Positions 1,647-62,439 of a DNA stretch of 64,000 bases are shown in pieces (position 1 is the stretch's first letter; every line of letters starts with the position of its first letter). Made by a program: the position numbers and the translations under genes. The stretch lies in NCBI GenBank assembly GCA_034231615.1, contig CM067315.1, positions 37,053,129 through 37,117,128 on the forward strand. The letters run 5' to 3'. The notes beneath the pieces are model-generated. The model saw only the letters and a list, made by a program, of their open reading frames with translations, did not search any database and was not told the DNA's origin. Source of the stretch: Meghimatium bilineatum. Lineage: Eukaryota > Mollusca > Gastropoda > Stylommatophora > Philomycidae.

Positions 1647-1795
1647 AATCTTCGGCATTCATTCTCAAACTCCTGCTGGTTCTCTCTTGTAGCAGGACAA
1701 TGGTCCTACTAGATTTTCAGCAAGATGTAGTCTAGAGAGTGGAAATGCACAGTGTAGCCGTTTCATTTACCATAATGGTACGATATATTCGTCTT
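1647..1795 (-). repeat. GAA-tailed SINE family, truncated copy (long-hairpin form)
   Basis: The minus strand reads as the 3' part of the family whose full copies lie at 2715, 20948, 39088 and 61680. It keeps the conserved GAGTTTGAGAATGAATGC end and the CTCCTGCTGG arm. The loop between the arms is longer than in the full copies. The 5' half is missing. Confidence 0.6.
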
Positions 1796-1799
1796 CGCG

Positions 1800-2515
1800 A
1801 GGTCTGTTTAATCTAATTTTTGTATTTTACCTATTCTGTTTGTGATTTGAAGTATTCATTTAATCAGACTTGAGACTCATGACTCATTTTCTTGTGGTAT
1901 TCTGCTTACCTCATTTAATTTTTGTCTATCAATGGTGCGTAAGATTCACATGAGCCCCACTATTGCTTATAAAACTAAACATGATTGCACCTTTTTGTCT
2001 TAAGATACAATGAGATGCACTTTAAGATCTCACTGTATTGATCATATTGTATGTTTATTTTTAGTTTGTTGTTGTTTCTCGATAGAATGTCTCTTTTGGA
2101 CCATGGCGTTAAAAAATTCCTTGTTTTTTCTGTTATTTCTCATCGACATTACTTTATATTTATGCTATTTATAATTGGAAAAAATACAATAAAATCATTA
2201 AATCTCAGTATCTGCATTGAATCACTCCAATAACGGACAATGCCATATTGGAGTGACATTTATAATAAATAAGAAACATCACACTGAATAATACAGGTAC
2301 TGGTTCAGCAAAATTTTCCACAAAAACGGCGTATTCATAAATGACAAAAGTCATCTGTAGCAGTGATAGGGCTTGTGCTTCTGTGACTTTTGTCATCCTT
2401 GGCAGTGAAAGTGTTAAGTATTTATAACATATTGAAGATACCCTGCATCTGTATGCAACATATTCTTTCCATAACATGGTCTTCTTTATGGATACGTTGA
2501 ACTCCTCAGAATTAT
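1800..2515. other. Non-coding stretch, nothing recognised
   Basis: AT-rich sequence on both strands. Short open frames occur but none resembles a known protein or is bounded by convincing splice sites. Confidence 0.35.
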
Positions 2516-2519
2516 AGGG

Positions 2520-3763
2520 AGAGTTAACCTGCAGTGGTTAAGACTTAAAAACAAGATAGACACTGAGGTTGGTGAAGAACAATTCGGTTTTAGGAAAAAT
2601 AATGGAACCAAAGAAGCTATACTTAGTATCTGACTGTTGATAGATAAATATATAGAAGTTCAAAATGTATCTATATTTGTTTCATAGGCTACAGCAAGGC
2701 CTTTGATAAGAGTCTTCTTCTGCGTTCGTTCTCAAACTCCTGCAGATTAGCAGGATGTAGTCCGGAGAACGGAATTCCTTGTGTCATGGTTTACAGCATT
2801 GCTGCGATATCTGCTCCTTTTGGCCTGACACATCCTACTTCAGCATGGCTTTGGGTCACTGACCCTATATGAGATGGGACAGCCAATCCCATCCCATAAA
2901 CCTTAGTCGCCTTTTACGACATGCGTGGAAGGTAAACAGTGTTGCTATTCTTTGCTGCCCTTTCGGGCCCCGACAACACACAGGCGACAAGAGTCTAACA
3001 TGAAAAGTTAATCAAATGTCTTCAAGAAATAGGCATAGGTGGAAAAGACATCAGGCTGATTAGAAATATATATTGGGAACAAACTGCATCAATAAGGTGT
3101 GAAAACAGTTACTCAACATACATAGAAATAAGAAGAGGGTAAGACATGAATGTATTTTACCACCAAGCCTATTTAATATCTACACAGAGAATATCTTTAA
3201 AAATATAGAAGAAATACCAGGACTAAAGATCAATGGGAAAATAATGAACAACCTGAGATATGCAGATGACACTGTTCTTTTAGCAGAAAATGAACATGAA
3301 CTACAAAGACTAATAGATTAAGTCAATAAATCAAATAATGAATATGGACTAGATATAAATATCCAAAAACACAAATCATGATAATCAGCAAAGTCACAGA
3401 AGAACAGGTGTTAAACATAAACATACATTGAGAGAAACTGCAACAAGTAGAACATTACCAATATCTTGGGTGCATAATCACAAATGGCAGATGTGAAGCA
3501 GAAGTTAAAAGGAGAATAGGAATGGCTAAAAGTACTTTCAATGACATGAGGAAAATAGTACCATCTAAACAAATTACAAACAAGTTAAAAATGAGAATTA
3601 TAAAATGCTACATCTATTCCATATTAATTTATGGCTCAGAAACATGGACACTAAACAATTAGAAGACAGGACTGATGCTTTGAGATGTGGATATATAGAA
3701 GAATAGGGAGAACATCATGGAAAGAGAAGAAAACAAACAAAGAGGTTCTAACAGACACTTAGT
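2520..3763 (+). pseudogene. LINE reverse transcriptase, broken and interrupted by a SINE
   Basis: Conceptual translation in shifting frames gives non-LTR retrotransposon RT blocks in the expected order: GEEQFGFRKNNGTKEAI near 2570, a KAFDK-like block at 2700, PSLFNIYTENIF near 3160, the catalytic box NLRYADDTVLLAE near 3260, then YLGCIITNGRCEAEVKRR near 3460 and IYSILIYGSETWTL near 3620. Several stops and frameshifts show it is dead. A GAA-tailed SINE (2715-2985) sits exactly in the KAFD block. A closely similar copy lies on the minus strand at 58590-59645. The clade was not assigned. Confidence 0.85.
2705..2995 (-). mobile_element. GAA-tailed SINE, full-length copy with target duplications
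   Basis: The element occupies 2715-2985 and is flanked by GATAAGAGTC (2705-2714) and GACAAGAGTC (2986-2995), a 10-bp target duplication with one mismatch. On the minus strand it starts near GTTGTCGGGGCCCGAAAG and ends in GAACGCAGAAGAA. No A or B box was seen. The target is the coding sequence of a LINE RT. Confidence 0.8.
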
Positions 3764-4166: not shown

Positions 4167-4505
4167 TTTTTCTACATCTGTGTTCATTATCAAACTTGTG
4201 TAGATCAGCAGAATGTAGTCCAGAGAACTGAATGTGTTCATAGAATGTAGTCCAGAGAACTGAATGTGTACATAGAATGTAGTCCAGAGAACTGAATGTG
4301 TTCAATCTTGGTTTATAGCATAGTGTGATATCTGTGCCTTTTGGCCATACACATCTAATTTTAGCAAGACATAAGACCCTCTGTGGGATGAAACAGCCAG
4401 CTCAATCCCCCCCAAGCTTCTCTTTTCGCATCTTACAAACATGCCTGGCGGGCAGCATTAACACTATTCTTTGCTCCCCTTTCAGACTCCGGAAACATAA
4501 AGGCA
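4167..4505 (-). repeat. GAA-tailed SINE, diverged copy with an internal triplication
   Basis: It aligns along its length to the family (TGTTCATTATCAAACTTG at one end, TTTGCTCCCCTTTCAG at the other). A segment of about 29 bp beginning AGAATGTAGTCCAGAG is present three to four times in tandem at 4207-4305, whereas full copies have one. Confidence 0.65.
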
Positions 4506-7800: not shown

Positions 7801-10800
7801 ATGTGATTCAGCCATTTAAAAAATATATTTCAATGCATTTTTTCATCATTACACAATTTTTAAAAAACTATCGGGCATGCAGGAGGCAAGTTATATAATT
7901 TGTATTGAGCGTAGTAAATGTTAATTCAGAGGCAATCACTGCAACAGAGAACAAACTGTAAGCGAGAATGTTGTCAGTTCATCGGAGATGATAACAAAAC
8001 TATAGTTAGTGGTCAGACTATTTGGAATCTCCTTCATGATGGCTACTATAATGCTTATGGTTTAGCCATTCTGCCATGTTTGACTGCTGCCCACATAGCA
8101 GTTTGTTTATTATGGTGTATGTGTGTTTGTGCCTTGCACAGTGAGATAACATGTTCACGGATGAATCTCGATTTGTCTTGGAGCCTACATATCAACGAAT
8201 CAGAGTATGGAGAAGTCGTGGTGAACATTTCAGTGATGGTGAATTCCATTAATGTAAAACCGATAAGGTGAGAGATCAGTGATGATGTGGGGAAGGTATT
8301 AGTTTAGCAGAGCCTCTCTCTATCGTGTGATTTGGAATCGAACAAATGGTGATTGCAACATGACAAGATTCTACTGCTTCTTGCCATCCCATCATTTCAA
8401 GTTATTGGACACAATGCAGTCCTTCAAGTTGATAATTCAAGATCACACCATTCTCCTGCAACAGGCGGTCATTCTTAGAATGGATCAGCCAACAAACAGT
8501 CCTGATATGAATCCTATGTAACATCAGCCATCTTCTGCATGAACTGTTTCTGGTACTTCGGCATCAGTGGCAGACAGGGCACTAATGTTTCATTCAGAAG
8601 CTCATCATTTCCATGCGACTGGTGTCTTGAATGTATCACAAATAATAGAGGACAAACACGGTACTGAAAATGCTGACCATTGTTGCTGTGCTGTCATTGT
8701 CCACACATTAATGCTTTAATCATGAAATATAGTTTTCATTACTGAAATGCTTGCCATGTCATATTTTGAAATGCTGTTCTGTTATTTTTCTTTTCATTTG
8801 ACTTAGCTCCCTTCTAAACAGTGGTCCATAACTTTTTTTGAAAGGTAAAAAGTTAGTGAGAAATAACTGATTACAAATTTCTTTAAATGAGATCACACTT
8901 TTTTCTGTCATTCAGCAATTGTCATCCAGAACAACAGAACTGGAGTCTCTCAAACTAGAGTTTTCATCACGTGTTGCAGACATAACATCAAAATATAAAG
9001 AAGATATGGCTGTGGAGAAAGAGAAAACAATACAGGTTGTCTTAATAGCTACATGTTTTGCTTTTCATTTACAACTAGCTGATTAAACCTTTTTTGTTTC
9101 ATTTGTAAATTAACTGTATATTTTGTAATTACAGTGCAGTTCACTTTCTTCTCTCCTGGTATTTGCTCTTTTATTTCATCATTTTGATTAGTAATGTCAG
9201 TGTAATTCTTCAGTGGTTTTTGTTGTCCAGTTTGTTTGTTTTGTGTTCGCTCCATTGTAACCATCACGGATATCCGTGCGATTTCCGCCGGGAGCGTGAT
9301 TACGTTGTGCCACCGTTATGCACCTTGTAGGCCTAGCACATCCGATTTCGGCATGTGTTGTCCAGTAATTTTATATATTTCATTTTACAAGGCTATTGTA
9401 ATTTCCATTTACAATATGTATTTCCATTCTCTGAACTACATCATGCTGGAAATCTAGTAGAACCATGGTTCTTCTACAAGATAGATTCAGGGGGAGTTTG
9501 AGAATGAATGCTGAAGGAGAAGAATAGATGACAGAATGGTGTTCTTGTGTTTTAGACAGGACTTTTTGTCATTCAGATATACTTTGTCTGTCTATCTATC
9601 TATCAGATAGACTTTGTATAGTAACCAATTTTCAATTCATAGTTTCAGTCTAGTTTTCAAGTCAGAGTGGATAGAGAGCGTAAGGAGCTTATACAAGATA
9701 ATTATAAGCAACAGAAACAGTTGGAGGCCCGTCTTGAGGAATCTGAAAGCAAAAATAAGGTCAGTGATCTTAACATGGTCTGTCAGGATGATGTTGTATG
9801 TTTTATATTTTGAACTGTACATTAAACTATTTGCTGGCTAATGAACTGACTTCATGAAGTGAACCAAAAGCCACGCTAAAGCCAGATGTGCCAGACTGAA
9901 AGGCACAGATATCACATCTAGTCTGTAAACTATGACACAATTTATTCTTCTCTCCAGATTACATCTGAAGTTCTATCTATATCTATCTGTTGTTTGTTAT
10001 ATCTATATTATATCTATATCATCTGTTGTTTGTTACTATACCTGAAGTTCATCTGTTGTTTGTTACTACATCTGAAGTTCATCTGTTGATTGTTACTATA
10101 CCTGAAGTTCATCTGTTGTTTGTTACTATACCTGAAGTTCATCTGTTGTTTGTTACTATACCTGAAGTTCATCTGTTGTTTGTTACTATACCTGAAGTTC
10201 ATCTGTTGTTTGTTGCTACATCTGATACTTGGTGGGGGTAGATTGTACTTGCCCTGAAAGTTAGTTCACTATATATTCTATCGTTCTGTGTCATCTTTTA
10301 TTTGATAAAAGTATATTGTCTATATTTGTAAGTTTGTCACTTGTGTAAACTTCTCTGCTTTTGCAGTTCCTGTTTTTATTCTCAAATTTATAGTGTTTTT
10401 TTTACTTAGTCTTCTAGATCCTTCTTCGTCCTGCTTTATGGCAGCGTGGTACAGAGAGTGTCTATTACGGCCAGGGTATATGGCTTGAATCCTGCTGCAT
10501 GCAATTGTTCAGACCATACCAAAAGTAATGGCAAACTACGCAACATATTACATTACCTAGAAAATGACTACAACCAAAAAATATTCTGAATAGGATATGC
10601 TACCAATGTTTTTTTTCCTTAGTTTTTTTGCATATTATTATGTCCAACTAGAATTTATTCAGAAAGTAGTTTTGGCTGTAAAAAATATGAAATTGTAATT
10701 CCAGGAACTGACAGACCTAAAGTACAAGTTAGAATCTTGTATCAGAGATTACAAATCCAAGCTGACAACTTTAGAAGAAGAGAATACTAGGACAAAAGAA

Positions 10801-13800: not shown

Positions 13801-16800
13801 TCTCAGTGACTTGAGTACACAGTTTGAATGTCTTGACAAAATCGCATCTTTTTTTGGAGATGCGGTTAGTCAAGTACGGAAAAACCAGGCGAGTACCCGA
13901 GTTGCCAGGCGATTTGGTGTCGTTGAACGGACTGGTTCAATTCCCGTTAGTCTCAAGAATTCTTTTTTATTATGAACTTTCAAATTGTTTGTCATTTTAT
14001 AATTCATTGCGCCTTCCAAATACAGTTTATTAATAGTTGTTTTACTGGTACTTTCTGGTTAAGAGTCATGCATTGATGAACAAATTGTAACATGAAACAA
14101 AATACAGTATGACCAAGGGGAAAAAGAGAACAATTAAGAATAATAAAAATAACAAGTGAAAGTAATCAATTCAGAACTATCCAAATTTTGTGTGTTGTAT
14201 TTATATAATACATCCACCCGAATTGTCAAGGCATGCCGAAATCGGATGTGCTAGGCCTACAAGGCGCATAACGGTGGCACAACGTAATCACGCTCCCGGC
14301 GGAAATCGCACGGATATCCGTGATGGTTACAATGGAGCGAACGCAAAACAAACAAACATATAATACTTCCTCAATAGATTCATCTCTTCCCTGTAGAAAA
14401 GATACTGCCTCCTTCTTTGTTAGTTGAATGTTGATAATATTCATTGTAACAACACTCATGGAAGCTATTGTTTTGTGAATGAAAAATGATGTCATGTTGA
14501 CCTGTGATGTATTTGCAAAAAAATAAATTTGTGTGCCCACTTAACAGTAATTACCAGTTTAGTTTTTCTTTTTATAAAAAGAAATGATAGTTATATATTA
14601 ATGCAATGTCTTGTAGGTGAAACTCCGTACTCAAATAGCAACAGAGCAAGAGAAGCTGCTACAAGAAAAAGATAATGAACTAGAAAAGCTTCGTCAAGAT
14701 CTTGTGACAACAAAAGATAAAATACGAGAGAGTGATGACCAGGTTGGTAACTTTTGAGAGATCTTTTCACTGTATAGTAATGTCCCAATATGATTTTATT
14801 TCTGCAAAACATGCCTTGTTATTTTGTAGCTAACATATTGGTCTTTAAATGTGTAAGCATAAATATTCTGCATTTTAACTGATACATATAACAAGGAAAG
14901 CTCAGATATTACAGCCATATTTCATAGCACACAGCTCTGATATTAGTTATATTTCATAGCACAAAACTCTGACATATTTCATAGCACAAATATTTCTTTT
15001 GTATTTTGTCTTATTTTGACAATGTTCTTTTGTCATTATTTTTTTTAATGTAATATATTGGTAATTTGACCAGTTGCAGTAATTTTTTGTTGGTTGAAGT
15101 AACGTTGTTGGCTGATTTAGTTGACTGGTTGCAGTAACGTTGTTGGTTGATTTACAGCAGAAGTGGGGCAACCTTTTTGTGTTTGCTAGACATATTTTAC
15201 TTTTTTGTGTGATATGGGGCCAAACAGCTTTCTTTAGTCTCTTGGAACTCCAGTCAATGTTTTCTGAACTCTGCGGCCAGTGCATATAGTTCTTCTAGAT
15301 CATCCTGGTGGGCCAGATTTTGCCCAGCGCAGATTTATATTTTGTTACCTTTTCTACTGTTCACATATAATTTCTAGTTTTATATTGGATTGTGCAATGT
15401 TGTTTGTTTTCCCTTTGATTTGTACCTATGTAGATCTCTCCAGATTTGAATCAAGTGAACATGTATATTATGTTGATGACTTCTGAGTCATCTGTGGACT
15501 CACAAACACTAAACCCAAGGAGGACTTTTCAAAATGCTGTTCTCATCTGTTCTTGCAGAGAATCAACATCATATTGGCTATATTTTACAATATACAGTAT
15601 ATTTCCAAATATGAGCTGAGAATGTGCATATTTTATCTGCTATTGATGTAGAGGTTTCAGCTTATGTATGCACAAAATCAAAAATTTTGTTTATAAATTA
15701 CCAGTAGAAACACAAAAATGATAAAGTTTGTACCATCTAAACTCTGAATAAGCACTGAATACTGTCAAATACCGGTAACTGGAAGAAAACATGGGAAAGT
15801 ACAAACAAAATGTCTTATACTTCTTTGTCTTCTTCAGTGTTCATTCTCAAACTCCCGCTGGTTCTCTCTTCTAGCAGGAAAATGTCCTACTAGATTTCCA
15901 GCAGGATGTAGTCCAGAGAATGGAAATGCATTGTGTTGCCATTTTAGTTGTCTAAATGGCCCGACAAATCTGTCTAGGTGGTATGTCTAAAAGTCTTAAA
16001 ATCCTTCGAAGTCACAATCTCAGGATGGATTTCATCAGTGTCTATCTCTCTGTCTAAAGATTGTTTTCACTGTCCTCAAAGATAGCGTCACTCTCATTTC
16101 CATCCATTAAATTACTGATGGAGCACATTTTTATCAGACACTCATTTCTGATGGAACATCTGACCATGATTCTTCGATCCACTTAGCGATTGCGATGATG
16201 TCAGCTTTGTTATGTGTTGCCACCCTTTGTCACGGTTAAGCAGGATGATGCCATCCATTCATTCTACTTTGCTCATAATCTGTCCTTAAATGATTTGTTA
16301 AGAGAGTCATCTAATGGCTTCAGGAAGGAGGTAAGGCGCCCAGAAATTACAGATAACGACAGCCACCATCTCATGTTATCATTTTCCACTTCTCAGTGAG
16401 ATGTGCCAGAAACAAGTCCCATACTAGCATGAATGTTCTTGTTTTTTTTTGTGTTAAATAAATACTCTTTCTCCCCTCTCCCACTTTATCCAGCCATTCC
16501 AGGGTGTGACTTTTGTCCATCAAATCTTTCATGTGTGCATGCACAAACACACCATTTGGGATTTTTGCCCCTATAGACAGTCTTGTGTTTAAAAATTATC
16601 AATGGAGGTGGGTGGGTGGCAAACATGCCTCTCTCTGCCATGCTACCTAAAACAACAGTGAAATTCATTTTCTCATGTCCAGTCATCTGTACAAAAACTG
16701 TCTTCACGCCTTTTCTTTCCACCCTGGAATTTGAGGGCAAATCAAAAGTGGGCAGGGGTCTCATCCATGTTAGGTGTATACAGGGAAATGCTATTTTGGG

Positions 16801-19800: not shown

Positions 19801-22800
19801 CAACTCCATGTATTTTCTTTTCCTTTCTTCAGATGTTAGATTGTCTCCGAAATTGGGATGTTTTGTCTTGTAACATCTTTTTAAGCTATATTCTTTAAAA
19901 ACAGCCACTGATTCGTGACACAGCAAGCAAACAGATTTGTTGCCAACTTGCATAATACAATAATTGGTAATCCATTCGTCTTTGAAAACCCGACACTCGT
20001 CTTCAATCTTACGTTTTTTGGATGCACTCATTATAATAAAAATATCTAAAATGTTGCAAAATTAACTAAAAACAAATGTGCTTCCGGCAGTGCGAATATA
20101 ATTATTTAGATTTAGAAAACTCGGTTACAATATAAATACAGAAATTTATGAATGGAAACTACAAACGTGATGGTTATTAAAACACCCGGGAATTCCCCAG
20201 GCACTGCCCAGCTTAAATGATTGCAAAGCAAGTATTTGCGCATTCCATTCGTAATTGGGGGGGTTATTTCTCACGATACATTATTGTTGTAACGATGTAT
20301 TATTAATTATAACAGCTTTTAGCGATATTCTATTTTGTATGAAACATCTTTTTAATATAAACTAAACATACATCCCGACATAATGCTTAAAAATTAAAAA
20401 CAATTAATTATAATTTGAAAGGCAATTTTCAAATTTAAAAAATTTTTTTATCGGCCGAGTGCTTATAATCATTGAGAAACATTCAGCCAACCAAATTACG
20501 TCAATTCTAGTTTAGTAAATTACTCAATATTAAACACTCATATTAAACGTAGTAAAATTTAATTGGCGCTATATATATATATATATATATATATATTTAA
20601 ATGATGTCAAATTGGGAAATAAATATTGTATATTAAATATATAAGTAAGTCGAATTAAAATTCCAATTGATTTCTGCGTAATATTAATGGGGGAAAAAAA
20701 TTATTTGTGAAGGTCGTACGTTTATTTAAAAATATGTTTGAGGGCCGCAAAATATCCGATGGCAGGTCGCATGAGGCCCGCGAACCGTAGTTTGCCCACC
20801 CCTGTTCTAAACCATTGTCTCTTTATATGTTTGTTTGTATTTTGTTTTTGGTAGTTTTGAGGAGCCAATCTTATTTTATTTTCACACCTGTGTGGACATC
20901 TGTGTTAGTTCATCTTTCAGTCCATGATATTATAAGGACCTTTCTATTCTTCTTCTTCTGTGTTCGTTCTCAAACTCCTGCAGATTAGCAGGATGTAGTC
21001 CAGAGAAAGACATACGTTGTGTCATGGTTTACAGCATTGCTGCGATATCTGCGCCTTTTGGCCTGATACATCCGACTTCAGCATGGCTTTGGGTCACTGA
21101 CCCTATATGGGATGGGACAGCCAACTCCATCCCATAAACTCCTTAGTCGCCTTTTACGACATGCGTGGAAAGTAAACAGTGTTGCTATTCTTTGCTCCCC
21201 TTTCGGGCCCCAGCAACACATGTGCGCTGCAGGACCTTTCTATAGCATTTCATTTCGAATACCAATATTTTCTTTTTCCATAGTCCCACAATTCATATGC
21301 TGCAATTGGAAAGATATAGTGTTTTAATAGTTGTAACTTTCATTGTTGAAAGTTGGTGCTTTCATATTTGAACTTAAAAATATTCAATGAAAGAAGTTTT
21401 CAACAATTATCTGTTGAATTCTCCACAAAACTTTTGTCAGAGAAATGCTGGCAATTGCCAAATTGTATATTCCTCATATTTATAGTAATTTTTTTCAAAA
21501 TTCTGGCAGTCATTTTATATTGTTGCAGTCACATGTGTCAATTTATATTTTTAACTTGTTGAATAGATGACGCCTCAGGAATTTTTGTGTGTGTACTTGT
21601 GCACATATAAAAATCTCTTCTCATTCTCTTTCATACCTGTCTTAAGCAGAATTGAAGGGTTGTGTTGAATGTATATTCACTAATATTCTGCATTATAGCC
21701 ATAACATAAATATAGTAACGGCCACGTCCTGGTGCTCTTGTCTCCACTTGAGTGTATCCACAATTACCTGATTACTGACAGCTGCAGTTTCTTGTTAGTT
21801 GACAATCGTCCTTCTTAGCCCTACAGTAGTGCTAATTTCTGATAATGCCACATTAAAGCCCTGTTCCAGTAATCTGACATTGAAAAGGATTCATCGCCCT
21901 CGTTAATTTCATTTTTACATATTCTTTCATACAAGGAGTTCAAAATTTCTGCATAATCCATTGCTTCACCACCAGAAACATTAGCAGCGCAAGCCTGCCA
22001 ATCTGATCTCACATTGCTTAGAACACCCATGACCAGACACATGGATTGTTCAGAAAGCAATGGCAACCTACCAATAATAACTATTTTCTAGAAAATCAGT
22101 GGAGCCAAAAAATGCATTTTTATCATTACATTCTGAATAGATATGCTACCTTTAAAACATTAACAGTATTTAGCATTATAAGTATATAATGTGGAATTTA
22201 TATAGAGTTTGTTAGCTGATATTTTATATAGAGTTTTAGAGTTTGTTATCTGATATTTTAAATAGTTTTAGAGTTTGTTAACTGATATTTTATATATAGT
22301 TTGTTAACTGATATTTTATATAGAGTTTTAGAGTTTGTTAGCTGATATTTCATAAAGAGTTTTAGTTTGTTGATGATATTTTATATAGAGTTTTAGAATT
22401 TGTTAACTGATATTTTATCAAATTAAAATAAAATGTTATACTTATCACAATTTTATTTGTCATGATACAGTGATCCAGTGGTTGAACAAACAAATTAATG
22501 AACAAAAGGTCAGCCAGAATCACCTAGGAAACTTTGAGCTACCGTCTTCAGCATTATCTCAGCCACGACCTGCTGTTGTAAGTTATCAACGTATGCATGT
22601 ATTAATATGTTCATTAATAGATCTGAAATAGTGCATTCTTACATCTGATATAACTTGTCTCTATCATAGCTGATATAATATTGCTAAGGATAGGAAAAAA
22701 AATATTTTTACCTTGATTAAAAATCAAATAAGTAGAAATAATTCACTAGTCAACATCAAAATTGTATCAGTAATGAAAAAAGTTGATCTTAACTAATTTT

Positions 22801-22958: not shown

Positions 22959-25900
22959 CAACAGCTGTGGTAGACTGAATTATTTATTCTGACCAATAAA
23001 AACATAACTAGGAGCATATGATGCAATCTAGTATCTTGGTATTACATCAATTTTGTGTATAAATATCTTACAGCTGACGGGAATTGAACCAGGTCTGTTC
23101 TAGCAGCACCGAATCGCTTTGCAACACAAGGAAACAGGTTTTCCGTACTTGATCAACCACATCCCCATGAAAAGATGTGGCCCGGTCAAGACTTTCAGCC
23201 TGTGTACTCAAGTCACTGAAAACAGACCAATCGAAACAAGGACTGTTACAATGATTAAAGTGATTCAGTGCTGCTAGAACAGATCTGGTTCAATTCCCGT
23301 CAGCTGTAAGAATTATTTTCATTTATCTTCATGCTTCCTACTTTAATGTACTTGTATAAGATATTATTTAAAGCAACATTGTTCTGTCTCTATGTTATTT
23401 ATGTTTACAAGAAAGCCTTTAGGTCCTTGTGTACGAATATGCATGTTCTGTGTTTGTGTTCCTGAGGATACTTTAATACTTGTACAGGATGTTTGTTGAT
23501 GTTGTAACAGTCCTTGTTTCGATTGGTCTGTTCTCAGTGACTTGAGTACACAGGCTGAATATCTTGACCGGGCCACATCTAAAAATTCAATTCCCGTTAG
23601 TCTCAAGATATTAGTTTGAAGGTCTGCACCTTTCTTATTGTCTCCCAAGAAGCTGGGGATGGCTGAAAGTGCTGATATTAGCTTGAATGCCTGCACCTGT
23701 CTTATTGAATGTGAAGATGCATTTTATATAGCATTGATAAGTTATCTCCATTCTACTTTTAGCATAATTACAGTGGCTCAAGTCATGGTTCTGTTCTGTC
23801 ACAAGAGAACTTAAAGCTGCAGGTACAACGAGCTTCAACTTCAAATGGTCAGCCTCAACAGGTATGTACTTGTTTCATGTTCTATGCACCAGATATTTAG
23901 CTAGTTTCATTTCTGAACATTTTATTTGGTTCAAGTAAATTACTCATTTATTTTTATTAAAACAATAGTATGTTTGCTTCAGCATACAGATATTATATCT
24001 TTATTAAACTTTCTTCACTACTTCTTGGGGTGCAGTATTGAATTGCTTCCTGGGGTGGCAGTGTTGGGGGGGGGGGGGGAGGTACATCTTGAATTTATTC
24101 TCTCAAGATTAAACTCTCAATCTTCTAGAGTATGGATATTCATAGACGTAATCATCTTGTAGAGAATGAATGTTCATAGACATAATCATCTTGTAGAGGA
24201 TGAATGCTCATAGACATATGGATCAGAGTATATATATGGATGGGTATAGAATGCAGTGATGAATGGAGAAGCAGGCATATATATAGAGTACTCATACCGA
24301 AAATGGTTGTGCTCGGCCAGAAGGCGCAAAATAATGCAGCTCACCGTTGAAAATGGCAGCACAACGTGCTTAACGCTTCCTGGTGGAAATCATATGAACT
24401 CTCATGTTGGATATCACAGAACAAACGTAGATGAAGAAGGTAGATTACTCAAACAACGTTAGAGATACAATGACAGTACTGACTTCTTCTCAATAACCTT
24501 ATCCTTCTCAATAATCCATACGATACACCAATTTTCTACACAAGGAGATCTCGTAGTACCTTTATTCAAAATCTGGCATTCTGCACCCGAGAACTGAACT
24601 CTGTGGCAGTGATTATCATCCAGTCACCATCCAAATGAATAAAACACTAATTACAAAACAAACTTTCCAGGCAGAGATATCAATTAGACTTACGTAAAAC
24701 ACAGGTTTATATATCGTCTCAATGGGACACCATAGACTATATCTAAAACTAGTGGGTAATGATGGGCAATGATGAGCACACAAGAAATCATAAAAATTAC
24801 AATACACAAATCATATTCAACGTTTCAACCAAAAGGTCTTTATCAAGACACAAACAAAACATTAAAAGACGACGAATAGAAAAATTATCACAACGTCCAA
24901 CGGAAATATGGAAATGATATGCCGGAAGGTCAGAAACTACATAAAAATGTAAATATATGTGGAAACGAAACGAACAAAAAGATGAGTAAATGACGGTACA
25001 AAAAGAATAAAGACAAAGACCACACCAAACCAGTACTAGACATAAGAGTGGTCGGAATTGAGTCCAAAAGGCTTGAGTGTACCCATTTCGAAAATGAGAC
25101 GATTTTCTAGAGCATACCTAGATCTATCATCGGTGGTGCAAGATCTGATGGCGGTGACCTGAATATCCAAGGCACCATGATGACCATCGCCGTTGAAGTG
25201 TGTGGCCACAGGAGTGGGTGTTCTGTGCTTGATGGCATGAAGATGGTTACAAAAGCGATCGCTCAATCGTAGGCCGGTTTCCCCAATGTACTGTTTGCCA
25301 CAGCGTTTACATATGATCACGTAAATGACATTACGGGATTCACATGTAAAGGCCTCATCGATGGAGAAAGTGGCCTTGGGAAATGAAATGGAGCGCATCT
25401 GAACCACATAAGGACATGTAAAGCAACGGACACGTGAGCAACGAACAGTGCCAAAATGGTCAGGAACAGAAGACTTAAGGTGGCTATGAACCAAGATGTC
25501 CCTCAGATTTCTATCACGCCTATAAGCCACCAGAGGTAAGTCATGGAAAGCGTCACGGGTGTCAGGATCAGACTGGAGAAGAGAATAATGTTTGAGCATG
25601 ATGCGTCGAACAGAAGAGTTATGGGGATGAAAGGTAAGAACAAGTTTAACCCGATCAGAGGAGGAGGAAGAACCCTGAGAGTTAGTCAAGGTATCGAGGC
25701 GAGACAAATGGCGCACACGGAGCCAAGCGGAAGAAAGAATGCTGTCAGGGAACGATCGTCTACGGAAAAACTCAATCATCCAAAAATTGAGTTTTTTAAG
25801 TCTAATTGTTGTTACGTTTCACGCAGTTACCTTGTATTGATTGCAGAGATATCAACACATTTGCCATGGAGTTTAATAAGGAATACTTAAGACAACTAAG

Positions 25901-28900
25901 GAGACAATACCAAAATATTAATAACTAAGAAAAATTATGTACTATATTGGACCAACAAGTCCAAAAATTATAGGAAGAACTGGCTGAAGCACGTGATATG
26001 GCAGAGACACAACCATTCATATGTAATCACATCACACTGCAAAAGACCAAAGTGAAGTTCATTAAAGAAAAGATAGGAACACAAAGAAGCTGGAGGAGAA
26101 AAACTCAAAAATAAAACTTTGAAAAGGAAGGGAGAAAACTGTGGAAACCAACAAAGCAAATAAATGATGATAGCAACTCTTCAGCAACAAACAATTACAC
26201 TGGAAGGTACAGGTATACTCTACACTGGCAAGCAAGCAGCAGATATGCTTGCAGAATCCTATGGACAGGAAAGTACCATTACCATCAATGCATGCAGACA
26301 ACAAAATGTTCATCATGAAATAAACAACAGTAAGAACAAGACAGTCTAGATGTCACATCTAAACCATTTACGTTAGAAGAACTAAAAGTATCTATAAGGA
26401 AATTAAAGCATTGTTTGTGAATTCATTATGAGGAGAGGTGAAATAGATAACATTGTAGCAGCATGTAAAATTCCCAGAAGAGAGACAGAAAAGACTTGGT
26501 CAACTGACATGAAAGAACCCAGTAGTGGTGCTGATAGCCTACACTAGCAATAGGGGGCTGTGGAGATCCACCATTGTATGTGCCCAATGACATGAGACTT
26601 GTTGATGAGATTGTCTTTGCTTCCTGAACGCTTCGACTTGCCGAACTGCCTGAAACTGGTTTTGAACTCTGTATGAAAACCAGTATAAATGATAACGCTA
26701 CAATTGTCATGTTTGAAATAACTTAAAACTACTGTTATGTATTGCTGTTGTTGTGCTCTACAGGCTGAGAACCAGCCAGGACACCTTCCTGTCAGTGGCC
26801 AGCTCTTTGGGAATTCTGCTCATGGTGGTATTCGAAAAAGTTCTATTCCAATATCACAGGGTCAAGCAAATACTTCCCCAATATTTCAAAACTCCCTGAA
26901 CAACAGTAGTGAAAGTAAAGACAAGTAAGTAGCTATTACTGTTGATCACATGGGGTCTCTATTTTTGTTGATTACAAGGGGTCTCTATTATTGTTGATCA
27001 TAAGGGGTCTCTATTGTTGATCATAAGGGGTCTCTATTGTTGATCATAAGGGGTCTCTATTGTTGATCATAAGGGGTCTCTATTTTTGTTGATCACAAGG
27101 GGTCTCTATTTTTGTTGATCACAAGGGGTCTCTATTTTTGTTGATCACAAGGGGTCTCTATTTTTGTTGATCACAAGGGGTCTCTATTTTTGTTGATCAC
27201 AAGGGGTCTCTATTTTTGTTGATCACAAGGGGTCTCTATTTTTGTTGATCACAAGGGGTCTCTATTTTTGTTGATCATAAGGGTTCTCTATTTTTGTTGA
27301 TCACAAGGGGATCTCTGTTTTTGTTTTTCACACAGAGCCTTGTCATTTGCCTTATTTTCATAAGATCTAATGTTCAATTCTGTCTGTGATGTCTTTTTTT
27401 GTGCACCTTTGTGGAGTTCCCTAGGGAGTATCACTTGAAACTGTGAAGTTATTTGCCTTAAGGTACTCAGCAGGCTGAATATTGCTCTTTTGAGATGGAA
27501 TAAGAACATATAGGGAAACCTGAATACAATTAGGTTAATCTTCTATGCCTTTTTTTTTAGTTGACTAAAGATTACAATGTGATCAATAATCTGTTATTAC
27601 ACATTGAATTACTCTTTTATTTTGTGTCATTCTCAAACTCCTGCAGATGAATTGAGTCTGAAGATGCTTAGGTATACACATCAACAGTGAAACAACCAGA
27701 TAGATATACAACAAAAATATTGGTACATTTTTTTTTCATTACCGCATATCTCCCTCATGCTAAATATATCTTGATTGCATGTGTACATATTCTAAATATA
27801 GAGTTGAAACTTATGAAATTATGTCATTTTTGGTGCAATTTCTTTTAGTATCCTGTTATTGTTAAAGAAATATGTCTATCATTCACATTTGTGATAAGCA
27901 CAAATCTTAAATAACTGATATGCAACTTAATAAGAAATCAGATGTTAATTTACGACAAGAAAATGACATACATGTGAGACGGATGTGTTCACATGGACAT
28001 TTAATGTCCCTATCTCTAAAAAACAAAGCTTGACAAATGGAGGTGTTATACCTGCTGTTAGGACTTCACCATATCCCTACCAACTTCAAGAGTCTAGAGT
28101 AGTACGTTCTCATCATCATCAGGTGCCATGCCTGCTGGCGTAGGCGGTCATGGCTCTCCACAGCAGAGAAATTTGAGAATTTTTTTATGTTGCTGTTACC
28201 AGACAGAACTGTGAACACAATGATGTCAATATCATTACCAGGCAGATCTGTGAACATGTTGTCACCTTGTGCAAGAATTATTATAAACAACTAAATATAC
28301 TCCTTACATCAAACATCTATCACTCATATATTATCAGGCTGACAACAGAAACAGTACAATTGTAACCATCTAAAGGTAGGTCTCATAACAGCAACCTGCC
28401 GTCGAGGATGAAGATAACTCTTCATGTACTAGGCCTGAGAAAAGCTGCAAGAGTGACCAAATGCCCCCCAAAAAATAAAGAAATCAGAATAATCGTTGTA
28501 GGACCATGCACAGAATACACCAAGAAACAACAAATAATATGGTTTGAACACCTTATGAGAATGAACCATAACCAACTACTAATAAGAACATAAAAGATCA
28601 GAATAAAACAAGAATACCTAGGAAAAACTGGATACACTCCCAGTCACCACCCTTATGCTTAATGGCAAGTGTGAATATTCTGACCATCATCTACATGGGG
28701 ATAGACAATAGACAACTATTAGGTGTGGTGGTCACTTCCCATCCCTACTGTGTTTACCTTCCGCAACTCACGTGTCAGGGACCCATTTACAGCTGGGTCG
28801 ACTGACAAGCAAGTTCACTATCAGCTGGCTACTGCGCTCCTCACTAACCATCTATGCATATTCCAAAAAGTAAAGGACTGGCAGTAATGAAAGTTTTGGC

Positions 28901-32275: not shown

Positions 32276-32516
32276 TAATGCCGTAGGGGTGTGAGATGTT
32301 AGCGATCTCACATTTCACAGGCTCTGCAAATGAGGGCGGTAGCCATCTCCTCTCCCTCGCAGTCTTTACTTCCCGGATTAATCCGGTACCCATTTAAGGC
32401 TGGGTCGACCTGGGAGCCGTTGCGATCTGAAAACATTTCCGCCTCAGCTGGGGAATGAACCCAGGACCACTCATATGCGAAGCCAGTGCGCTAACCACTG
32501 CGCTAACGCGGCTCCC
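32276..32516 (-). mobile_element. tRNA-derived SINE
   Basis: On the minus strand the first 75 bases read like a tRNA: GGGAGCCGCGTTAGCGCAGT, then GGTTAGCGCACTGG, an anticodon-like CTTCGCATATGAG, and the B box GGTTCATTCCC. The body contains GGTCGACCCAGCC and ATTAATCCGG and ends near GATCGCTAACATCTCACACC. The A box (TTAGCGCAGTGG) and B box are intact enough for pol III. Confidence 0.85.
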
Positions 32517-32829: not shown

Positions 32830-33720
32830 AAGGGTTCATGAGAGAAACTCTCAACTTAACTCTTATAATTTAGCTCTGGATTAACGTACAACGGAAGTCA
32901 AGTTGTTCATATGACACAGTTTTGCTATTCTTTGCTTCGATCACCACATTGGCCCCCTTCAACACATAGGATGACCACTGCTGTATTGATGTTGTCTCTG
33001 TCTATTTGATCATACATGTATTCTTATGTTTGCAGTTTGTCTTAGTCTTTTGTGTTTTGGTAGTTATTTTCTTGAAATTGTGCTTGTATTATAGTTTGGT
33101 TGTCTCCCTCTAGTGCTTTTGATGTAGATTTTGTTTTAGTCTATCATTACGATGTTGTATCTGCTGTGTTGATTGTTTCCCTTTCTGTCAACTCAATCTT
33201 TTATCTATAACTGACATGATGCCATATTCTCTTGTGTCTGTTGATAATTATCCTGATTTCATGTCTCAAGTCTTCATCTCTTCGTAGTGCACAATTTCAC
33301 TATGGTGCGCACACTGTTGTTCTTGAACATAAATTGTTAAATGGGTCAAGGGACATGAGCCCATGGCCACTGGATCAGCAACCAAATTGTTAAATTTCCA
33401 TCAGTCCTTTGCCAGTTTGCTACTCAGAGTGTTTTATATTTTTAAAAGGTGTTCTTAAATTCCTTTTTTTCTGTATTTGTTACTATTATTATTAGTATGT
33501 TTGTTCAGATGAAGATCTTTGATCAAAACATCAACTGTTTTTGTTCGTATTTATTTTATTATAATTGTTGTTATTAGTATTGGTTTTTTAAAACACATAT
33601 TAACTTATTGATTATGATCATATAGCACTGGTAGTTATTGAATGTATAGTTGGAGTTAACAATAGGAGAAGAGTAACATCATATACAGTGATTCTCACAA
33701 TTATTGTTCAATGCTGCCCA
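32830..33720. other. T-rich non-coding stretch with a Penelope-like end motif
   Basis: No coding features. CAGATGAAGATCTTTGATCA followed by AAACATC (33506-33532) resembles the hairpin motif at the Penelope end (24818-24850) and at 57223-57254. Confidence 0.35.
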
Positions 33721-36690: not shown

Positions 36691-36927
36691 CCCTGCATTT
36701 AGTTTCTAGATCCCTCATGTGAGTTTCCTTGACTCTGTTTTCAATATCTCAAGAGTAGGACATGTTCTGACTGTGTGCAATGTCAGTAGCAAGACACTTG
36801 GTGCAGCATGGATATTGTACAGGGCCCAGATCATTCAAGGTTGAGATGTTTTCCATCACAATTTCAGGATTCTTGGAATGGTCATCTGGATCAGACAAGA
36901 CAGAAAAGCATAGTAGACAAGAGACTA

Positions 36928-37446
36928 TTATAAGCTGTCAGTTGTTAGAAAGTAACATGGAACTGTCAAGTGAAACATACCAAGCTGTTATAAGCTGTCA
37001 TTTGTTAGAAAGTGACATAAAACTGTCAAGTGAAACATACCAAGCTGTTATAAGCTGTCAGTAGTTAGAAAGTGACATGGAACTGTCATGTGAAACATAC
37101 CAAGCTGTTATAAGCTGTCATTTGTTAGAAAGTGACATAAAACTGTCAAGTGAAACATACCAAGCTGTTATAAGCTGTCAGTAGTTAGAAAGTGACATGG
37201 AACTGTCATGTGAAACATACCAAGCTGTTATAAGCTGTCAGTTGTTAGAAAGTGACATGAAACTGTCAAGTGAAACATAGCAAGCTGTTATAAGCTGTCA
37301 AGTGTTAGAAAGTAACATGTAACTGTCAAGTGAAACATACCAAGCTGTTATAAGCTGTCAGTAGTTAGAAAGTAACATGTAACTGTCAAGTGAAACATAC
37401 CAAGCTGTTATAAGCTGTCAGGTGTTAGAAAGTAACATGAAACTGA
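36928..37446. repeat. Minisatellite, 60-bp unit, 8-9 copies, with dimer structure
   Basis: The unit begins TTATAAGCTGTCAGTTGTTA and ends ACCAAGCTG. Copies 2 and 4 match each other (CATAAAACTGTCAAG) and copies 3 and 5 match each other (CATGGAACTGTCATG), so part of the array grew as a 120-bp dimer. Confidence 0.94.
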
Positions 37447-37530
37447 CATGGATTCTATATTTTTCATCTTGCTGTGTATCATCCCTAGATGCATATCATT
37501 ATAACAATGAGATGGATAAGTTGCTATCAA

Positions 37531-39008: not shown

Positions 39009-39440
39009 TTAACAAGCTTTTCTTATTGGTTGTATGAGTAGAGAAATTTCCATCAGACCCAAATTAGAGTTAGTTTAACAAGCTTTTCCGCCCGTGTGTT
39101 GCCGGGGCCCAAATGGGGAGCAAAGAATAGCAACACTGTTTACCTTCCATGTAAGTCGTAAAAGGCGACTAAGGGGGTTATGGGATGGAGTTGGCTGTCC
39201 CATCCCATATAGGGTCAGTGACCCAAAAGCCATGCTGAAGTCGGATGTGTCAGGCTGAAAGGCGCAGATATCGCAGCAATGCTGTAAACCATGACACAAT
39301 GCATTCCGTTCTCCGGACTACATCCTGCTAATCTGCAGGAGTTTGAGAACGAACACAGAAGAAGAAGAAGACAAGCTTATCTTATTGGTTGTATGAGTAG
39401 AGAACTTTCCATCAGACCTAAATTAGAGTTAGACAAGAGT
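39009..39440 (+). mobile_element. GAA-tailed SINE, full-length, within a duplicated 70-bp flank
   Basis: The element at 39088-39370 lies between ACAAGCTTTT (39078) and ACAAGCTTAT (39371), a 10-bp near-perfect duplication. A larger block, starting ACAAGCTTTTCTTATTGG and ending AAATTAGAGTTAG, is present on both sides (39011-39076 and 39371-39434). So either the target was already duplicated or the duplication arose with the insertion. Sense is plus, ending in (GAA)n. Confidence 0.85.
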
Positions 39441-39638
39441 AATATTCTATCCTGATCTATTCTTTGTTTGAGAGACACTCAGTGAGCATGCCTCGGTGAG
39501 CATGCATGCAGCATTTCAAGTTGAGACATTATTAAGGCATTGATGTTGGTCAGTTCCATGTCTTGTATATACTTCTGCCATCTGACAGTAAATATCTCAA
39601 GTTTATTGCAGGTAAAGCAGTTGAGTTATCAGGCAGAG

Positions 39639-41227
39639 GATAGTCCACATTTCTGATAAGTGAAGATGACCAGGCATAGAACAGTCCACATTTCTGATAA
39701 ATGAAGATGACCAGACATAGAACAGTCCACATTTCTGATAAGTGAATATGACCAGACGTAGAACAGTCCACATTTCTGATAAGTGAAGATGACCAGGCAT
39801 TGGACAGTCCACATTTATGATAAGTGAAGATGACCAGACATAGAACAGTCCACATTTCTGATAAGTGAAGATGACCAGGCATTGGACAGTCCACATTTCT
39901 GATAAGTGAAGATGACCAGGCATTGGACAGTCCACATTTCTGATAAGTGAAGATGACCAGACATAAAACAGTCCACATTTATGAAGTGGGGATAACCAGG
40001 TATTGACAGTCCACATTTCTGATAAGTGAAGATGACCAGACATAGAACAGTCCACATTTATGAAGTGGGGATAACCAGGTATTGACAGTCCACATTTCTG
40101 ATAAGTGAAGATGACCAGACATAAAACAGTCCACATTTATGAAGTGGGGATAACCAGGTATTGACAGTCCACATTTCTGATAAGTGAAGATGACCAGACA
40201 TAGAACAGTCCACATTTCTGATAAGTGAAGATGACCAGACATAAAACAGTCCACATTTATGAAGTGGGGATAACCAGGTATTGACAGTCCACATTTCTGA
40301 TAAGTGAAGATGACCAGACATAGAACAGTCCACATTTATGAAGTGGGGATAACCAGGTATTGACAGTCCACATTTCTGATAAGTGAAGATGACCAGACAT
40401 AGAACAGTCCACATTTCTGATAAGTGAAGATGACCAGACATAGAACAGTCCACATTTATGAAGTGGGGATAACCAGGTATTGACAGTCCACATTTCTGAT
40501 AAGTGAAGATGACCAGACATAGAACAGTCCACATTTCTGATAAGTGAAGATGACCAGACATAGAACAGTCCACATTTCTGATAAGTGAAGATGACCAGAC
40601 ATAGAACAGTCCACATTTATGAAGTGGGGATAACCAGGTATTGACAGTCCACATTTCTGATAAGTGAAGATGACCAGACATAGAACAGTCCACATTTCTG
40701 ATAAGTGAAGATGACCAGACATAGAACAGTCCACATTTCTGATAAGTGAAGATGACCAGACATAGAACAGTCCACATTTATGAAGTGGGGATAACCAGGT
40801 ATTGACAGTCCACATTTCTGATAAGTGAAGATGACCAGACATAGAACAGTCCACATTTCTGATAAGTGAAGATGACCAGACATAGAACAGTCCACATTTC
40901 TGATAAGTGAAGATGACCAGACGTAGAACAGTCCACATTTCTGATAAGTGAAGATGACCAGACATAGAACAGTCCACATTTATGAAGTGGGGATAACCAG
41001 GTATTGACAGTCCACATTTATGAAGTGGGGATAACCAGGTATTGACAGTCCACATTTATGAAGTGGGGATAACCAGGTATTGACAGTCCACATTTATGAA
41101 GTGGGGATAACCAGGTATTGACAGTCCACATTTATGAAGTGGGGATAACCAGGTATTGACAGTCCACATTTATGAAGTGGGGATAACCAGGTATTGACAG
41201 TCCACATTTCTGATAAGCGAAGACGAC
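39639..41227. repeat. Two-unit minisatellite, 41-bp (A) and 38-bp (B), about 40 units
   Basis: Both units begin CAGTCCACATTT. A continues CTGATAAGTGAAGATGACCA and ends GACATAGAA. B continues ATGAAGTGGGGATAACCAGG and ends TATTGA. Left end: eight A units. Middle: A and B mixed as AB, AAB, AAAB and longer runs. Right end: about six B units in a row. No stop codon occurs on the minus strand in any phase for long stretches, so overlapping open frames up to 239 codons appear; they have no gene-like features. Confidence 0.95.
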
Positions 41228-41305
41228 TGCTTGGAAGTTTTTCAATTTTGTTTCGCTTAGATTATACTGAATGTTTTTATTAGCCTGTATTCTAAGATGT
41301 GGACA

Positions 41306-43758: not shown

Positions 43759-43934
43759 CATGGTCTTTTTTCCGCCGAAGACGGATGTGTCGGGCCATTG
43801 GCGCAAATAAAACGGCGACACAACGCATTTCCATTCTCTGGACTGCATCCTGCTGGAGATCTAGTAGTACTGCTACAGGAGAGATCCAGCAGGAGTTTGA
43901 GAATGAACGCTGAAAAAGAAGAACCATGGTCTTT
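43759..43934 (+). mobile_element. Short GAA-tailed SINE with 10-bp target duplication
   Basis: The element at 43769-43924 (156 bp) lies between perfect CATGGTCTTT copies (43759-43768, 43925-43934). It starts TTCCGCCGAAGACGGATGTG and ends GAATGCTGAAAAAGAAGAA-like. It lacks the first half of the 280-bp copies, so it is a natural short form and not a random truncation. Confidence 0.8.
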
Positions 43935-44039: not shown

Positions 44040-44330
44040 AAAGAGATTGTATAATAGCATGTATTGAGCACATCGAAAGACAGCAAATAAAATGGTTCGG
44101 TAATCTTATGAGAATGAACCCACACCAAATACCAATAACAGTAAATAACAAAAGAATATCCGGATATAGAACCAAGGGTAGAATAAGAAAGCCTTAGGGA
44201 AAAACATGGACTTAATGCAACCAATGTGACACATCTGGCCTTGGAACGACAAATAAGGTTTCCACCCATAACGGCAAGATTTGATACTATCAACTATCGT
44301 TCACCAAGGGAAAGACAATAAATATAAGTT
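44040..44330 (+). pseudogene. LINE C-terminal tail fragment (third tail type)
   Basis: Reads CIEHIERQQIKWFGNLMRMN, then PHQIPIT and NKRISGYRTKGRIRKP, ending in the stretch AACGGCAAGATTTG and GGGAAAGACAATAAAT. Compare 62105-62400. Confidence 0.7.
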
Positions 44331-44639: not shown

Positions 44640-44805
44640 CTCTTCTTCTGCGTTCGTTCTCAAATTACTGCACATTAGCAGGATGTATTCCGGGTAACAG
44701 AATTCGCTGTGTCATTGTTTGCAGCTTTGATGCGGTACCTTTGCTGATAGAAATGACACATCTTATTTCTGGGTCACTTTAATGATCCTATATGGGACCG
44801 TGTTG
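44640..44805 (-). repeat. GAA-tailed SINE, truncated copy
   Basis: The + strand starts CTTCTTCTGCGTTCGTTCTC, then GCACATTAGCAGGATGTATT, TGTGTCATTGTTTGCAGC and GATCCTATATGGGACC, after which similarity stops. Confidence 0.75.
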
Positions 44806-45205
44806 CATCCAACGCAGTACCTTCTGATATTGGTGCATTATGTAATAATTGATATAGCTCTTACTTCCTATATGCAGTGGGATGTTTTTTTCTGAGATTT
44901 CTTTTATACACAGGAGACTCCAGCTTTCAGCTTAGTGCAATACTTACTGAAGGAGCCTTCTACTCAGAGGGGGGGGGGGTCTATTGATATAGATATAAAT
45001 TTCATATTGCATGAGGACTAAAAATGTTATTACTGAAACCAATTCGAGCTGCAATGATTCTCACAATATACAAATTTAGTTTCATAACCCGTTGTGACTT
45101 GTGACACAGTATCTTCTCAAGAACACAGTCTTTCTTCAAATTTACTGTTACTTTCTCCTTTTCTTTTTTCTATAGTCGCTCTTTCTTCTTCATACACCAA
45201 TCATC
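44806..45205. other. Non-coding stretch, nothing recognised
   Basis: It includes a poly-G tract near 44967. No coding signal. Confidence 0.35.
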
Positions 45206-52065: not shown

Positions 52066-52153
52066 AGACATTGATGATGAAGTCCCTCCTTCGCAAGCGA
52101 AGAAAGAAATGAATAGCATAGAACAGAACCATTTGAATAAGATTTGGTATTTG

Positions 52154-52793
52154 TGAGTTGTCATATGTCTAAAGTGTCCAATGTCTAAGTTGTCACATAT
52201 CTAAGTTGTCACATATCTAAGTTGTCACATATCTAAGTTGTCACATATCTAAGTTGTCACATATCTAAGTTGTCACATATCTAAGTTGTCACATATCTAA
52301 GTTGTCACATATCTAAGTTGTCACATATCTAAGTTGTCACATATCTAAGTTGTCACATATCTAAGTTGTCACACGCTTGAGTTGTGATATGTCTGAATTG
52401 TCACATGTCTGAGTTGTCACAAGTCTGAGTTGTCACAAGTCTGAGTTGTCACAAGTCTGAGTTGTCACGTGTCTGAGATGTCACGGATCTGAGTTATTTC
52501 ATATCTGAGTTATTTCATATCTGAGTTGTGACATGTCTGAGTTGTTACATGTCTGAGTTGTTACATGTCTGAGTTGTTACATGTCAGAGTTGTGACATGT
52601 CTGTGTTGTCACTAGTATCTGAGTTGTCACAAGTCTGAGTTGTTACATATCTTAGTTGTCATATATCTAAGTTGACACTCGCTTGAGTTGTGACATGTCT
52701 GAGTTGTCACAAGTCTGAGTTGTCACAAGTCTGAGTTGTCACAAGTCTGAGTTGTCACAAGTCTGAGTTGTCACAAGTCTGAGCTGTCACACC
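52154..52793. repeat. Minisatellite, 16-bp unit, about 38 copies
   Basis: The unit is CTAAGTTGTCACATAT in the left third, drifting to CTGAGTTGTCACAAGT and CTGAGTTGTTACATGT in blocks. Each block is internally uniform, showing repeated local re-amplification. Confidence 0.95.
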
Positions 52794-59645: not shown

Positions 59646-59727
59646 TTCGTATTTCGTATAACAATCTTTGAATTATGTATTCTTGTGGAATTGTATCCAC
59701 TCTTCAGCATTCGTTAATGCTTTACGT

Positions 59728-61215: not shown

Positions 61216-61324
61216 TCGATGTTGCCACACATTTTCCACTATTTATTGTCCAAAACTCGAGTTCATATGTTATAATCGTGTTATTTAGCTCTGATAGGGA
61301 CCAAACCTGAAATAAAGGAATGAC

Positions 61325-61495
61325 GAAAACGGATGTGCTGGACCTCGGACGTCCTGACCACAAGTGGCCAACCGGGGTGCAAATAATCACAGTTCTACTG
61401 TGGAACTTGCAGCACAACGTACTTCACGCTCCCCGGCGGATATCACACGAAATATTCGTTGTGGTTATTTGAGAGCGAACGCTGAAGAAGAAGAA
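61325..61495 (+). repeat. SINE variant B-like copy with GAA tail
   Basis: CGGATGTGCTGGACCTCGGA, GCAGCACAACGTACTTCACG, CTCCCCGGCGGATATCACAC, then GAGAGCGAACGCTGAAGAAG with (GAA)n. It combines the variant-B middle with the GAA tail of the main family. Confidence 0.7.
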
Positions 61496-61663: not shown

Positions 61664-61976
61664 ATTCAATACATTTTATCGCCCGTGTATTGCCGGGGCC
61701 CGAAAGGGGAGCAAAGAATATCAACACTGTTTACCTTCCACGCACGTCGTAAAAGGCGACTAAGGAGGTTATGGGATGGAGTTGGCTGTACCATCCCATA
61801 TAGGGGCAGTGACACAAAGTCATGCTGAAGTCGGATGTGTCAGGCCGAAAGGCGCAGTTATAGCAGTAATGCTGTAAACCATGACACAACTCATTCCGTT
61901 CTCCGGACTACATCCTGCTAATCTGCAGGAGTTTGAGAACGAACGCAGAAGAAGAAGAAGATTCAATCCATTTTAT
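61664..61976 (+). mobile_element. GAA-tailed SINE, full-length copy with 16-bp target duplication
   Basis: The element at 61680-61960 is flanked by ATTCAATACATTTTAT (61664-61679) and ATTCAATCCATTTTAT (61961-61976), 15 of 16 matching. It starts CGCCCGTGTATTGCCGGGGC and ends GCAGAAGAAGAAGAAG. Confidence 0.9.
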
Positions 61977-62104: not shown

Positions 62105-62400
62105 GTATCGAACATATTGAGAGACAGCAAGTAAAATAGTTCGGTCACCTTATGAGAATGAAGTCAAACCACATACCAATAAGAACATATAACAAAAGAA
62201 TATCCGTGCGTAAAGACAAAGATAGACCAAGAAAATGATGGATAGAAAACATCAATATAACATTGATCAAAGATGAACTAAATGCAACCTCGGCGACACA
62301 TCTGGCCTTGGAATAACAGCTTCAGCTCCCACCCCTATGGTTAACGGCAAGTGTGAACCATCATTCACCTGGGGATAGAAAATAGACAATAGGTAAACCT
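62105..62400 (+). pseudogene. LINE C-terminal tail fragment (third tail type)
   Basis: Reads IEHIERQQVK, FGHLMRMKSNHIPIRTYNKR, then a DRPRKWIENINITLIKDELN-like block and ATHLALE, with the non-coding end AACGGCAAGTGTGAA and GGGGATAGAAAATAG. Confidence 0.75.
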
Positions 62401-62439
62401 GTGTTCTACGTAAGCACTATTTCTGTTACAACAGTACTG

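Follow-up and report, generated by a model that had tools for sequence, protein, structure and literature searches.

The window considered here, a single stretch of 64 kb with 33-43% G+C in 4-kb steps, holds four full copies of a short element, together with degenerate copies, a fragment and a stretch that resembles its 5' part. These are listed below, with the two parts of the element given as they lie on copy 3.

2716..2985, minus strand: full copy 1, between duplications at 2705-2715 and 2986-2996; found by BLAST and profile, with an empty-site paralogue
20948..21230, minus strand: full copy 2, with the 13-base duplication ATAGAAAGGTCCT; found by BLAST and profile
39089..39370, plus strand: full copy 3, with the 11-base duplication ACAAGCTTWTC; found by BLAST and profile
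61680..61960, plus strand: full copy 4, with the 16-base duplication ATTCAATMCATTTTAT; found by BLAST and profile
39089..39185, plus strand: the head, about 95 bases; no tRNA, 5S or 7SL match, A and B boxes not above shuffles
39234..39364, plus strand: the 3' domain common to other short insertions, with closing stem TGTGTCA/TGACACA
4171..4505, minus strand: degenerate copy that retains the head and is internally duplicated; profile search
44641..44820, minus strand: degenerate copy, consensus positions 95-276; profile search
9858..9965, plus strand: fragment, consensus positions 129-235; profile search
32914..32970, minus strand: stretch resembling the head, with no tail domain; E 1.6e-5 against the head profile

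Elsewhere in the window, one LINE reverse-transcriptase region is present in two copies, at 2990-3750 (plus) and 58869-59630 (minus), which are 84-93% alike in pieces and both carry stops, and three degenerate copies at 28506, 44059 and 62103 (plus) resemble the C-terminal coding part of a LINE (CIEHIERQQIKWFGNLMRMN at 44059). Many tandem arrays, whose repeat units measure about 12 to 60 bases, lie at 39520-41251, 59629-60822, 52086-52758, 36805-37524 and 26887-27362, among others. An open frame at 25036-25818 (minus) encodes a GIY-YIG-like domain (Pfam E 6e-4, below the cut-off), which we take to be perhaps the remnant of a Penelope-like element. The one match in the window at an Rfam threshold is a tRNA-like sequence at 32440-32512 (minus; 32 bits, cut-off 29) that ARAGORN does not call; it lies about 400 bases from the head-like stretch and is possibly a tRNA-derived SINE.

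An earlier note, made from the letters of this sequence, had described four full copies of 270-283 bp with target duplications and (GAA)n tails. Searching the window with BLAST and with a profile of the four copies recovers these four at nhmmer E-values of 2e-101 or lower each (matched ranges 2986-2713 and 21226-20951 on the minus strand, 39089-39365 and 61680-61955 on the plus strand), and no fifth intact copy is found in the 64 kb by either method. The copies are 91.2-93.1% identical in pairs, measure 270, 283, 282 and 281 bases between their duplications (copies 1-4), just as the note had it, and all terminate in an AGA/GAA tail, (GAA)n. The duplications are 11, 13, 11 and 16 bases long; that of copy 1, AGACTCTTRTC, overlaps the tail, so that the 3' limit of this copy can be placed only to within a few bases. 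Random segment pairs equalled the duplication scores of copies 1-4 in 9, 1, 9 and 0 of 300 draws, and under a stricter score 3, 0, 3 and 0 of 100 random draws were as good.

The insertion of copy 1 can be read directly from a paralogue. This copy sits, on the minus strand, within a LINE reverse-transcriptase remnant, and a paralogous LINE copy at 59205-59669 (minus; RVT_1 E 1.6e-24) is without an insertion at the corresponding site. When copy 1 and one of its duplications are removed, the flanks align to 59505-59645 (minus), the only differences being point changes and one gap of one base. The segment 59505-59645 is thus the empty site of copy 1, and shows that a real insertion event took place. 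With the searches and the duplications, this confirms the four copies as described. At least one stop lies in every frame of the four copies on both strands, the longest stop-free run on the plus strand being 55 codons. A DNA transposon was also considered, and is disfavoured by the (GAA)n tail, the varying lengths of the duplications and the unlike ends of the element.

The earlier note had also called the 5' end conserved. All four full copies do start within five bases of one another (-4 to +1 relative to the profile start): copies 3 and 4 begin with CGCCCGTGTRTTGCCGGGG, copy 1 begins one base further in, and copy 2 is longer by four bases at an altered start. The common start therefore stands, but the string quoted for it is internal, with the true start some 12 bases earlier (11 in copy 1, 16 in copy 2 and 12 in copies 3 and 4). 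A 19-mer is identical across the four copies, which does not set it apart, because a longer invariant block of 40 bases is present in the 3' end.

The last 130 or so bases of the element recur in seven short insertions that have no such head. By eye, they fall into about four diverged kinds, and their positions, with the number of random pairs that give as good a duplication, are as follows.

43772..43918, plus strand: tail-only relative g9; 13-base duplication with one mismatch (3/300)
15829..15980, minus strand: tail-only relative g8; weak duplication (29/300)
1649..1800, minus strand: tail-only relative I12a; weak duplication (44/300)
61318..61490, plus strand: tail-only relative t61, with a (GAA)n end; 13-base duplication with one mismatch (3/300)
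24293..24439, plus strand: tail-only relative t24; 14-base duplication with two mismatches (2/300)
14232..14353, plus strand: tail-only relative t14, with an AAAC-like repeat end; 13-base duplication with one mismatch (0/300)
9234..9355, minus strand: tail-only relative t9, with an AAAC-like repeat end; exact 11-base duplication (3/300)

For five of the seven, then, at most 3 of 300 random pairs match the duplication, while those of g8 and I12a are weak and their starts uncertain. The 3' domain was aligned in 13 rows comprising the four full copies, one degenerate copy, one fragment and the seven tail-only insertions; the copy at 4171-4505 was left out for its internal duplication and a stretch at 9412-9516 as incomplete, and the profile matches at 47405-47368, 51254-51206 and 27656-27623 were likewise omitted as weak (E 0.02 or more). 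Given no structure, RNAalifold returned for these rows a single stem of 7 pairs, three of which are kept despite changes on both sides, the changes observed being U-A to C-G, A-U to G-C and C-G to U-A. Pairing is found in 90.1% of the 91 cells against 82.9% in shuffles (0/500 as high), 10 cells are changed on both sides against 4.0 (0/500), and the covariation score is 0.319 against 0.178 (0/500), although these shuffles take no account of relatedness, and the 13 rows are related and form few groups, so that the changes represent few independent events. Two of the five measures were not above shuffles (both-side-changed pairs, 281/500; further pair types, 500/500). Structures slid along the alignment pair in 13-53% of cells (maximum 52.7%), and the slide of -3 reaches a covariation score of 0.275 against 0.319 for the stem itself.

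A co-varying stem of 7 bp fits a LINE 3' end that is recognised by its own reverse transcriptase. The reverse transcriptases of stringent LINEs are thought to need a 3' sequence, commonly one with a stem-loop, as described in PMC3747384 and PMC3414825; a conserved 3' stem and a short terminal repeat, by which a tail of the stringent type is known, are both found here. Because the 3' domain is shared and its stem is kept through changes on both sides, the element was probably mobilised in trans by a LINE of this type. The suggestion in the earlier note that the insertion marks are such as LINE machinery leaves is accordingly supported from several sides, namely the duplications, the tail, the empty site and the shared 3' domain.

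The starts of these insertions bear on whether the element is a separate entity at all. All seven tail-only insertions appear to begin within a span from 22 bases upstream to 5 bases downstream of the point where their aligned row begins, and the starts can be called clustered because the profile would find longer copies and, by the duplications, none of the seven is longer. Either the reverse transcriptase has a tendency to halt at the foot of the domain, or these insertions are short elements in their own right. Such preferred stops may occur, and could in principle account for the full copies as well: these would then be favoured 5'-truncated LINE copies, made when the enzyme halts at a strong RNA structure, with no separate short element involved. 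We consider this quite improbable, however, since the start common to the four full copies lies about 145 bases further upstream, with none extending beyond it as judged from the duplications, a relative of the head exists without the tail at 32914-32970, and no frame is open through the body of the element.

The nature of the head was approached by comparison with known small RNAs. The head contains TCGTAARAGGCGACTAAGG, which is exact in all four full copies. ARAGORN calls no tRNA anywhere in the window, and Rfam places no family on the element at threshold, whether tRNA, 5S, 7SL or other; a tRNA head is rejected on both grounds, and 5S, 7SL and other Rfam RNAs on the second. When E-values up to 10 are allowed, a Giardia snoRNA model matches copies 1-3 at 13.4, 19.4 and 19.2 bits (E 4.8, 0.053 and 0.068) against a cut-off of 100, is absent from copy 4, and covers the body rather than the head; two other weak matches (E 1.3 and 3) concern one copy each and lie on the strand opposite to the element. 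The best A and B boxes on both strands of the four copies score 11-12 of 18, a level equalled by 24 to 40 of 40 mononucleotide shuffles. The earlier note had seen no pol III promoter and no tRNA, 5S or 7SL head, and had proposed a comparison of the 5' end with structural RNAs; that comparison, made here with Rfam on the copies in the window, agrees with ARAGORN and the box shuffles in bearing it out.

Neither GTCGTAARAGGCGACTAAGG nor two other patterns from the element were found on looking further afield, the former in viral and prokaryotic contig collections, which say little in this case, and the latter in viral contigs. A 17-base pattern matched one viral contig, which by a rough estimate is chance at that length. 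A motif like GTCGTAARAGGCGACTAAGG presumably is common in lepidopteran LINE sequence, as it seems to us.

A profile of the head, made from the first 100 alignment columns of the full copies, was run over the window, where, besides the four copies, it matches the degenerate one at 4505-4425 (E 4e-8) and the head-like stretch on the minus strand, as well as two further places at chance level. No match to the 3'-domain profile, at E up to 1, lies beside the head-like stretch. A head that occurs without this tail is what would be expected of a module, and so lends something to the idea that the element is a SINE in the loose sense, in which a LINE-derived tail has acquired its head from a different RNA, be it another LINE or a small RNA that is undescribed or confined to the lineage, with a degenerate or unusual promoter. 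Joining of this general kind has a precedent in PMC3414825, where U12 snRNA and tRNA sequence are described as joined to the R2 5' end by template jumps. Against it stand the failure of any Rfam family to reach threshold and A and B boxes at the level of shuffles, and on this evidence we regard a loose-sense SINE as rather unlikely.

The fixed 5' end invites a different explanation for the head, namely that the element is a LINE derivative that begins with an HDV-like self-cleaving ribozyme, which would cut its RNA from a host transcript as in the R2 SIDEs and RIME/NARTc. The head of copy 3 does contain a 7-base complementary pair, GTGTTGC/GCAACAC, which is exact in copies 2 and 3 and includes one G-U pair in copy 1, but which is broken in copy 4. 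A strict descriptor of the HDV-like double pseudoknot, run with no positive control, finds no such fold in the four copies or their consensus and does find it in some shuffles, and no Rfam ribozyme matches at E up to 10. A head of this kind seems to us very improbable.

No full partner LINE was found within the 64-kb window, nor any LINE 5' end carrying the head, the head-like stretch at 32914-32970 being read as DNA only. For five of the seven tail-only insertions, the 245 to about 590 bases that lie upstream were inspected by eye in three frames, and no LINE coding sequence was recognised. An RNase H-like frame lies at 62397-62993 (E 1e-4, below the Pfam cut-off), and the start of t61 resembles its end to a degree equalled by 6 of 500 shuffles and 26 of 2000 window segments, a likeness that may be taken as a lead only.

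The strict SINE, as PMC3414825 and PMC6740152 define it, has a pol III head, and the head found here is not of that sort. The element is short and non-coding, with target duplications and a simple-repeat tail as in a SINE, and has neither a small-RNA head nor internal A and B boxes. SIDEs, by contrast, are described as LINE ends without the middle, and in PMC6740152 as rare. The element behaves like a SIDE and may be one: it has no small-RNA head and no pol III promoter, and it has in part what would be a LINE 3' end, in the form of a domain present in 13 insertions with a co-varying stem, although no adjoining LINE frame was recognised (five of the seven tail-only insertions). The earlier note had left the choice between an undescribed SINE class and a LINE-derived short element. 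The latter fits better and the former less well, because the 3' half of the element is a domain common to other retroposed insertions.

On balance, then, we favour a SIDE or something like one: a LINE derivative that neither codes for protein nor moves on its own, with about 275 bases ahead of its (GAA)n. According to this reading, the 3' 130-150 bases would be the 3' end of a stringent-type LINE, made up of an RNA domain closed by the 7-bp stem, a second hairpin (CCTGC...GCAGG), the block GAGTTTGAGAACGAACRC and the (GAA)n tail. A LINE reverse transcriptase acting in trans would bind this domain in the RNA of the element and copy the RNA into nicked DNA by target-primed reverse transcription, which would leave the duplications of 11-16 bases. 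The head would likewise come from a LINE, and the type of promoter is a matter of inference.

Such an arrangement has relatives among described elements. Persaeus of Lepidoptera, called a SIDE in PMC6740152 because it matches the CR1 LINE Zenon at both ends without a small-RNA head or pol III promoter, is of similar length (263-386 bases in table 1 of that paper), has no similarity to tRNA, 5S or 7SL, and is likewise a dispersed short insertion with a direct duplication. Persaeus as described there has a poly(A) end and both ends match its partner, however, whereas the element here ends in (GAA)n and a LINE origin of its 3' end is what we infer. The R2 and R2/R1 SIDEs of Drosophila are also short and non-autonomous, with a 3' end thought to be recognised by a stringent reverse transcriptase, but PMC3414825 places them in rDNA and reports an HDV-like ribozyme start tested in vitro, while the present element is dispersed and no such fold was found in it. 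RIME and NARTc of trypanosomes can be likened to it as truncated versions of an autonomous LINE that PMC4035085 terms SIDEs, although that source reports the Pr77 promoter/ribozyme at their 5' end, and no ribozyme fold is seen here. Finally, the SINEs with stringent LINE tails of PMC3747384 similarly combine a 3' stem tail common to other retroposons with a short terminal repeat, differing in the pol III head that belongs to a strict SINE (PMC3414825, PMC6740152) and was not found in this element.

The family to which the element belongs is presumably new, although its kind is known and rare, a judgement made apart from comparison with Repbase or Dfam; letter strings of the element, sought in the texts of papers rather than in figures or supplements, led to no relevant paper. 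Nothing in the window requires a new kind of element, and a head of unknown type is possible. A more far-reaching version of this last idea, which we hold to be unlikely, is that the head is an undescribed type of retroposon head, a compact 5' module of RNA and promoter, neither pol III nor HDV ribozyme, which is joined to a stringent LINE tail and also exists apart, and that tails of this kind also give rise to elements consisting of tail alone, about 120-200 bases long, with their 5' starts at the foot of the 3' RNA domain. If the tail-only elements are indeed self-standing, the recognised RNA domain alone would be enough for copying. On the favoured reading of a SIDE or SIDE-like LINE derivative, the clustered tail-only starts suggest where the enzyme of a stringent LINE may stop, and a further SIDE family with a (GAA)n tail and a 3' domain that co-varies across tail lineages would offer a natural data set on what a stringent LINE reverse transcriptase needs of its template.
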